This document shows, one piece after another, positions 26,796 to 28,886 of a DNA stretch of 64,000 nt. The stretch spans positions 138,182 through 202,181 of the forward strand of contig NW_006766883.1 of NCBI RefSeq assembly GCF_000275845.1, given 5' to 3'. The first letter of the stretch is position 1; each line of letters starts with the position of its first letter. Under the pieces are notes generated by a model, which was not told the DNA's origin, searched no databases, and was given only the letters and a program-made list of their open reading frames with translations. The stretch is from Dichomitus squalens LYAD-421 SS1. Lineage: Eukaryota; Basidiomycota; Agaricomycetes; Polyporales; Polyporaceae. Position numbers and translations under genes: made by a program.

Positions 26796-28886
26796 ATGGG
26801 CATTGTAGAGAAGGTAGGCCGGGATGTCTACATCCCGAGCGCGTGTGGCTAAAGATGGCTATCCATGTCTGCAGATCAAGGAGATCGAGGGTAAGAGCTC
26901 TATAGACGACATGCGAACTGCGAAATTGACGCTATGCTTCATATCCAGAGGAGATGGCGAGGAGTAAGTCTTCCATGCACCATGTTGTAGCTTTGAACTC
27001 AGCTCTTGAATAGCGCAGAAGAACAAGGTGAGGACGTTACCCAGTCCGCGACTCGCCCAGCCTGTTCATCAGGCAGCGAAGTAGGCCACGGAGTACCACC
27101 TTGGCCTCCTCAAGGCCAAGCTCGCCCGATACCGTGCACAACTCCTCGAGCCGACAGGCAAGTCGAGCGGCGGTGGGACGGGCTTTGATGTCCAGAAGTC
27201 CGGCGATGCCAGAGTCGCCCTCATCGGCTTCCCTTCAGTTGGCAAGGTCAGCGTCCGATCGACTCAGGATTCTATTGCCGCTGCCTCGTCTGACATCACC
27301 CCTACGTCCGGGCTAGTCAACCCTCCTGAGTAAATGCACGCACACCCAATCCGAGACCGCGGCGTATGAGTTTACCACCCTCACGGTGGGTTTGTTCATC
27401 ATACAGACCATTACGTCCTGATGTGCCTCATGCCGTTACCCTCTCAGGCTATTCCTGGCGTCTTGGAGTACGAGGGCGCGCGGATACAGTTGCTTGACCT
27501 GCCAGGGATCGTTGAGGGTGCCAGCCAGGGCCGCGGTCGTGGGAGACAGGTTGTAGCCACAGCCAAGACTGCCGACCTCATTCTCATCATGCTTGACGCA
27601 ACGAAATCGGAAGAGCAACGACGGCTGCTTGAGATCGAATTAGATGCCGTAGGCATTCGCTTGAACAAGCAGAAGCCCGATGTCGTGTTTAAGCGGAAGA
27701 CTACTGGAGGGGTGCGTGGTGCGCTCGATGCCGTCATTGTGTCCCTTGATACATCCGGATTCCCTCTTTACACAGATTACGGTGAGGTACACCGGTTTAA
27801 CTCCCCTGATCTCTTGCTCATATTCGTCTAGATCAATAAAACGGTGCCATTGACAAAGACCGATGAAAAGACCATTCGGTCCATCTTAGCCAGCTGTAGG
27901 TGGACCCTAGAATTGGACCATGCGGTAGCTGCTCACGCTCGTCTGGGTTACAGACAAACTGCATAACTGCGACGTAATGATCCGTGAAGACGTAGGTTCT
28001 GTCTTTTCTGTCCGAATATGCCAGTGACATTCCCCACAGATTACGACCGATGAGTTCATAGATGTCTTAATAGGTATGTCCTCTCCTATCGACCAATGTG
28101 GACAACGGCCTTGCTGAAACCCCGCGCTAGGAACACGCAAATATCTTCCGTGTCTATGTAAGCTTTCCCGATCCTTGAATGCCGGCCTTGCTGAGAATAA
28201 TTTCGACATAGACGTTTACAACAAGATAGACGCCATCAGCCTTGAGCAGGTGGACAAGCTCGCGCGACAAGACCATACCCTGGTGATCAGCTGTGAGCTC
28301 GGGTTGAAGTAGGTCTTGGTCAATGCGTCTAGAATAGCACCGAAGCTGATGTGATGCTGCGCAACGCAGCTTGGAGTACCTCTACGAGAGGATTTGGGCC
28401 GAGCTTGGCCTGGTGAAGGTGTACACTAAGAAACGGGGTGCCCACCCCGATCTTGCGGATCCTATCTGCCTGCGCCAAGGGGCCACCATCGAGGTGCGCA
28501 GACACGGAAACTTACAGCACGGGGATGGGCTTATCTGATGCCTCGCTTTGCAGGGCGTTTGCAATGGTATTCATCGCTCGCTCGCGGCCAACTTCCGATA
28601 CGCACTAGTCTGGTGAGTCTGGAGACGCTCGTGCCGCCTTGTCGATGTCCGCTGACATACGTTTCTTCCAGGGTGAGCACATCAGACATGTTGAACTCAA
28701 GGAATGGTGTTGTGACGCCTATAAATCAGGGCAAGTCTTCGAAGTTCAACCCACATGCACAGAAGGTTGGGCTAAACCATCACGTCGCGGACGATGACGT
28801 TGTGTCAAGTGAGTATGATCGGACGCCTTGGAACCCGCGTGTTCTCTAGACCTGACCGCCGGCGTTTGGCAGTTTTCACGAAGTAA
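26796..28886 (+). CDS. RBG1: developmentally regulated GTP-binding protein DRG1/Rbg1
   Basis: Eighteen exons: 26796-26813, 26875-26890, 26949-26963, 27014-27027, 27085-27246, 27317-27385, 27448-27711, 27776-27781, 27832-27895, 27954-27991, 28040-28073, 28131-28157, 28212-28308, 28370-28493, 28554-28612, 28672, 28730-28808 and 28873-28886. The product is 366 aa, the normal DRG1 length. It has MGIVEKIKEIEEEMARTQ, G1 GFPSVGKST, G3 [10 protein letters not shown]4 NKID, a C-terminal TGS domain and the conserved end DDDVVSIFTK. DRG1 partners a DFRP1/Tma46-type protein and acts on ribosomes. Exon 8 is 6 nt (encodes IT) and exon 16 is 1 nt (third base of the Trp in ALVWGKSSKF). If 28673-28729 is retained, the protein gains 19 residues in frame. 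Confidence 0.92.

Follow-up and report, generated by a model that had tools for sequence, protein, structure and literature searches.

Exons of a single nucleotide are in print for APC11, VPS55, Fusarium CYP621A and Cryptococcus neoformans, and the count given in the first-pass annotation of the fungal DRG2 locus described here, one report in a plant, was thus too low. The Arabidopsis APC11 exon, like the apparent one in DRG2, consists of 1 nt between two introns, is essential to the reading frame, is old and has been partly lost, and it too was missed or mis-modelled by annotation (PMC4674806, PMC8831610). It differs from the DRG2 exon in that its base is an A rather than a G, in belonging to a plant and in having been proven with cDNA and reporter mutants; it also lies 333 nt into a 422-nt stretch, so that its upstream intron, unlike that of DRG2, is long (PMC4674806). 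The plant VPS55 microexon shares with the DRG2 exon its 1-nt length, a conserved GTRAGT donor, deep conservation and absence from some copies; in contrast, it is found in plants, some lineages have transcripts with and without it, and it is supported by RNA-seq and RT-PCR (PMC8831610). In Fusarium CYP621A the exon is, as in DRG2, fungal, has the arrangement AG/G/GT (slashes mark splice boundaries throughout), lies in a stretch resembling one intron of roughly twice the length and falls in a conserved motif, and it is backed by RNA reads in two species; however, it belongs to the Ascomycota, to one genus and to a rarely expressed P450 gene, and it supplies the middle base of a Gly codon (PMC12940212).

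The Fusarium paper claims the first 1-nt exon of a fungal gene (PMC12940212). Because 1-bp exons were already mentioned, in one sentence, for Cryptococcus neoformans in 2014 (PMC3990503), neither ‘first in fungi’ nor ‘first in Basidiomycota’ can be claimed for DRG2; compared with what we describe here, the pertinent passage of that report leaves its genes unnamed and contains no conservation analysis. Stwintrons (spliceosomal twin introns) resemble the arrangement proposed for DRG2 in that two short introns leave sequentially, but they are nested, one intron interrupting a splice element of the other (PMC5639578). In P450 genes of P. chrysosporium the shortest exon is 6 bp (PMC1184071). A single-base exon in placozoan mitochondrial cox1 is also in the literature and, being mitochondrial, was set aside. 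No single-base exon in DRG2/Rbg2 appeared in the literature searched; within that literature, the gene seems to be new, as does how widely the exon is apparently conserved across Agaricomycetes.

Dichomitus squalens is a wood-rotting fungus. The window, by which we mean the whole 64-kb stretch of its DNA that was analysed, contains the gene summarized in Table 1. Because its predicted protein matches yeast Rbg2 in the PDB with 476 bits and yeast Rbg1 with 394 bits, the gene is DRG2/Rbg2 and not DRG1, the name it had been given at first. PF01926, PF02824 and PF16897, which denote GTPase and TGS domains, are precomputed for the top protein matches, so that both domain content and the closer similarity to Rbg2 place the protein among the DRG2/Rbg2 GTPases. 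DRG2 is a housekeeping gene for a translation-linked GTPase. A DRG1-like paralogue, matched in three blocks, lies on a different contig of the genome (L010, G000:C15:639400-642000); it has no intron at the Trp-Gly (W-G) site, where YAIVWGASAKH is unbroken. From 29541 onwards on the plus strand there is another gene with an ITHAHAD stretch, which by eye has the look of a metallo-beta-lactamase-fold hydrolase.

Table 1. Coordinates in the window of the DRG2 gene and of the features around its one-base exon
Feature	Position	Strand	Description
DRG2/Rbg2-type GTPase gene	26796..28886	+	18 exons, 366 aa, introns 48-70 nt; spliced translation
Exon 8	27776..27781	+	6 nt, ATTACG, Ile-Thr; spliced translation
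Exon 15	28554..28612	+	ends GCA CTA GTC TG, phase 2
Intron 15	28613..28671	+	59 nt, GT-AG, gtgagt...ttcttccag; branch-like CTGAC 16 nt before end
Exon 16	28672..28672	+	single G, third base of Trp codon (TG+G)
Intron 16	28673..28729	+	57 nt, GT-AG, gtgagc...ataaatcag, phase 0
Exon 17	28730..28808	+	begins GGC AAG TCT TCG (GKSS)

Read directly from the window, exon 16 is one base between a complete upstream intron ending in AG and a complete downstream intron beginning with GT, and without that base the conserved protein would lose its reading frame. The end of exon 15, both donors (28613 and 28673), both acceptors (28671 and 28729), the lone G between them and the two intron lengths had all been proposed in the first-pass annotation, and the sequence agrees with each of them. 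Joining 28612, 28672 and 28730 (TCTGGGGCAAG) was the only one of five joins tested that gave ALVWGKSSKF in frame, which bears out the earlier claim that TG+G+GGC is unique in this respect. Skipping the G by joining 28612 to 28730 (TCTGGGCAAG) shifts the frame, as had also been claimed, and leads to a stop 15 residues past ALV, and keeping intron 15 places a stop directly after the W. When intron 16 alone is kept the frame stays open for 19 extra codons, and retention therefore needed testing; the first-pass annotation had listed an exonic 28672-28729 as a refuting outcome, but was silent on the open frame. The W and G that the G at 28672 helps to join are contiguous in yeast Rbg2 and in the DRG1-like copy of the same genome.

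The composite pattern GTRNGY...YAG/G/GTRNGY...YAG, searched on both strands of the 64 kb with introns set at about 44-75 nt, has a single match, at 28672, and YAG/G/GTRNGY alone occurs three times in the window. Splice sites were scored with a matrix built from the gene’s own 15 other introns, and because it rests on so few the scores are rough. The intron 15 acceptor (7.4) and the intron 16 donor (8.2) are each the third highest of 17, whereas the intron 15 donor (4.5) is the lowest and the intron 16 acceptor (1.0) the second lowest of 17; these last two values count against a 1-nt exon. A strict branch-site match is absent from intron 16, as it is from six other introns of the gene. Introns 15 and 16 show no similarity of the kind left by duplication, with 892 of 1000 shuffles scoring equally well.

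Relatives were compared as predicted proteins, from which the structure of their DNA was deduced. A protein search found 7,809, of which the best 120 were used, nearly all of them from Agaricomycetes where named; by source column, 94 are annotated models and 26 come from elsewhere (lgn, jgi, eukprot). Contigs of no more than 1,600 nt carry 16 of the latter; the others have longer contigs (to 14.9 kb) or none. The two W/G junctions are disturbed in 40 and 41 of the 94 annotated models among these best 120 of 7,809, and any other junction in at most 26. Among the 26 non-annotated proteins of the same set, two are disturbed at W/G: P0005, which is without this region, and P0070. When the best 120 were sorted by pattern, W-G was clean in 24 of the 26 non-annotated proteins and in 48 of the 94 annotated models (46 not), although cleanness alone is silent on the presence of the exon; the remaining annotated models comprised 11 that lack Val-Trp in frame (dVW), 10 with one extra residue, 11 of class W-V and 14 others. 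A loose pattern, ‘dVW frame2’, matches almost every protein and was disregarded in favour of the frame-0 rows and inspection.

Two kinds of error in these models bear on the site. Inspection removed P0072, which joins TG straight to GGN after an upstream frame shift, from the dVW class, leaving 10 of the 94 annotated models (best 120) in which Val-Trp is missing, as would happen if splicing started from the GT within the Val codon; such an in-frame loss requires an AG immediately 5′ of GGN. These models come from Ganoderma, Trametes, Epithele, Lenzites, Tricholoma, Hygrophoropsis, Collybia, Russula, Suillus and Mycena. The single extra residue found in another 10 of the 94 (best 120) is Y in three, C in three, S in two, L in one and W in one; all have TNN codons, which fits a TG/GTNN donor used 4 nt late. 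This group comprises Trametopsis, Lactarius, Lactifluus, Coniophora, Leucogyrophana, Coniferiporia and four Mycena. Orders were looked up for some members of the two groups (Polyporales, Hymenochaetales, Russulales, Boletales and Agaricales), and the other genus names are as printed in the protein listing. Both errors would say the same thing about the underlying DNA: a phase-2 donor, a phase-0 acceptor and one base missing between them. By inspection P0108, of class W-V, is also a direct TG/GGN join, P0091 was left undecoded, and P0077 and P0089 (W-V-M) and P0055 (W-V-L) are at odds with a GTRNG donor.

As an observation on annotation, 20 further annotated DRG2 models (10 dVW and 10 with an extra residue) seem to be wrong at the site corresponding to 28702-28729. 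The junctions on either side of exon 8, numbers 7 and 8, show disturbance in 21 and 23 of the 94 annotated relatives and in 0 and 1 of the 26 non-annotated ones (best 120 of 7,809). Exons 1-4 (26796-27027) are only 18, 16, 15 and 14 nt long, and the junctions that follow them are disturbed in 13-26 of the 94 annotated relatives in the same set.

The introns of relatives can be seen, in part, in short open reading frames (ORFs) that run into them. Such ORFs were drawn from 99 proteins plus four more (one already among them), and those crossing TG/GT with at least 50 nt remaining were tested as degenerate back-translations rather than as DNA. By script, YAG/G/GTRNG lies at 44-75 nt in nine of 11 testable ORFs, where residue shuffles lead one to expect 0.43; the same test at intron 14, as a control, gave two of 47. 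Three of the 11 were then removed: P0145 is an annotated model, and P0140 and P0153 look like cDNA and enter exon 17 as AG/G/GGN, the match in P0153 being false. By inspection the arrangement is present in all eight that are left, although these are not independent, because P0189, P0205, P0212 and P0214 share ICMRKGSTIE or look alike. P0205, P0212, P0213 and P0215 stop within the second donor (G-stop), leaving only its start visible, while P0189, P0214 and P0222 continue into exon 17 with an AG immediately 5′ of GGN and imply intron pairs of 54 + 67, 54 + 51 and 55 + 69 nt, respectively. P0222 fits the exon-15 residues of P0008 jointly (GIHRSLATNFRYALV+TG/GT) and carries the exon-17 residues of P0008; it is incompatible with the exon-15 residues of P0007 (Thelephora terrestris), which differ by one. 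P0008 reads ALVWGKSS, and the intron-bearing gene would not fit on its 1,224-nt contig; P0008 would be transcript-derived, and P0222 and P0008 presumably come from near-identical Thelephora-like species. A comparison of this site in related species had been suggested at the outset, and the back-translated ORFs point to YAG/G/GTRNG, an acceptor-base-donor arrangement that appears to be kept in orthologues, though not in every relative.

The public D. squalens protein (P0001, the top database match) equals our prediction apart from nine extra residues, NGVVTPINQ, between the W and the G. These are the translation of 28703-28729, part of intron 16; the public model keeps 28 nt (28702-28729) as coding and seems to take an acceptor at 28701 that rescues the frame. 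There may be reads behind that acceptor, and P0001 has precisely the protein expected if a single 89-nt intron ran from 28613 to aactcaag/G at 28701. We regard such an intron as very improbable: its acceptor, at -1.9, has a lower score than any of the gene’s 17 and is AAG, whereas those 17 are CAG or TAG, and NGVVTP occurs in none of 221 other proteins fetched. The insert is probably an annotation artefact, a piece of translated intron. Slightly less improbable, though still hard to credit, is that intron 15 is real and 28673-28729 is an exon that places 19 extra residues between Trp and Gly. These 57 nt contain no in-frame stop, the annotated models P0044, P0075 and P0092 continue from W-V to S, R or C as if intron 16 were retained, and the cDNA-like P0070 also reads on, but then stops. 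However, the insert would separate the W from the G, which adjoin in yeast Rbg2, in the DRG1-like copy and, among the best 120, in 24 of the 26 non-annotated relatives, and the stretch opens with the donor scoring 8.2 and closes at CAG.

An error in the assembly would remove the need for an exon altogether, if a G had been lost from a GGG at 28612/28613 (assembled genomic letters, TCTGGTGAG) and one 117-nt intron in truth followed TGG. This we consider the least credible account, since 117 nt is outside the gene’s range of 48-70 nt, sites giving 59 + 57 nt would be a coincidence, given the composite’s single occurrence in 64 kb, the public D. squalens model (possibly from the same assembly) requires an equal base count here, and relatives show TG/GT ... 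YAG/G/GTRNG. The adjoining acceptor and donor would suggest stepwise removal, as in a stwintron or at a recursive splice site, and either might be proposed in place of an exon. A recursive splice site, or zero-length exon, is AG/GT and leaves no base, whereas the site here is AG/G/GT and its G is needed in the mRNA; as to a stwintron, neither DRG2 intron interrupts a splice element of the other, both being complete and non-overlapping. Either identity is therefore highly unlikely, and the recursive splicing raised in the first-pass annotation holds as an analogy but fails as an identity because the G would stay in the mRNA.

Taken with the integrity of the W-G pair, which the 19-residue retention, the 28701 acceptor and skipping would each break, and with the YAG/G/GTRNG arrangement in the intron-bearing ORFs of relatives, these considerations support the original proposal of a 1-nt exon: at a probability of about 0.92, DRG2 has at 28672 a genuine exon, one nucleotide long and constitutively used, whose flanking introns are removed stepwise. 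We infer from the sequence comparisons that the mRNA of this species is spliced in this way, that use of the exon is constitutive and its splicing stepwise, and that it is old. Each flanking intron, as a complete short GT-AG intron, would be recognised through intron definition. The acceptor of intron 15 (cag) overlaps the exonic part of the intron 16 donor; the two could hardly be bound at once, so the introns would leave one after the other, presumably through steric exclusion between acceptor and donor recognition. Guo and Liu likewise judge simultaneous removal of the introns flanking the APC11 exon very unlikely (PMC4674806). Once both introns had been removed in sequence, the G would be left to complete the Trp codon.

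The order of removal is probably not fixed. In the cDNA-like P0070 the other exons are joined and G/GTRNG follows, as if intron 15 were out and intron 16 kept. In P0140 and P0153, exons 14 and 15 are joined, intron 15 is kept and the G is joined to GGN, as if intron 16 had left first, unless their genomes hold one intron there. Set side by side, the two patterns make either order seem possible. The reading frame and the conserved Trp-Gly would suffice to hold the exon in place, and a regulatory role would be unnecessary. An unlikely proposal, though one we mention, is that the exon goes back to the ancestor of most Agaricomycetes and owes its persistence to a checkpoint exerted by its obligatory stepwise splicing, whichever intron leaves first; omission of the base or retention of intron 15 would truncate the C-terminal TGS region, and the speed of splicing would thus set the level of intact DRG2.

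The 1-nt exon is apparently old in Agaricomycetes and looks to be absent from some relatives and patchily kept. W and G are contiguous in several ORFs that read through intron 14 (P0139, P0147, P0167 and P0168), the AG/G/GGN of P0140 and P0153 may mean a single intron at the site, and inspection of P0219, which has R before G, suggests AG/G/GGN as well. An old origin followed by repeated loss of one or both introns would be the simplest account, with parallel gain also possible. The repeated intron loss proposed here for DRG2 resembles the history reported for plant APC11 (PMC8831610).

These results lengthen a very short list by a one-base exon, apparently kept for a long time, in a core GTPase of translation, and they do so in the Agaricomycetes, a class with many sequenced genomes and tractable species. 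The 1-nt exon explains why many public mushroom DRG2 models are wrong at one spot, and its layout, TG/GT ... AG/G/GT ... AG/GG, provides a search pattern for more such exons. The DRG2 site also offers natural material for studying how the spliceosome copes with an acceptor and a donor separated by a single base.
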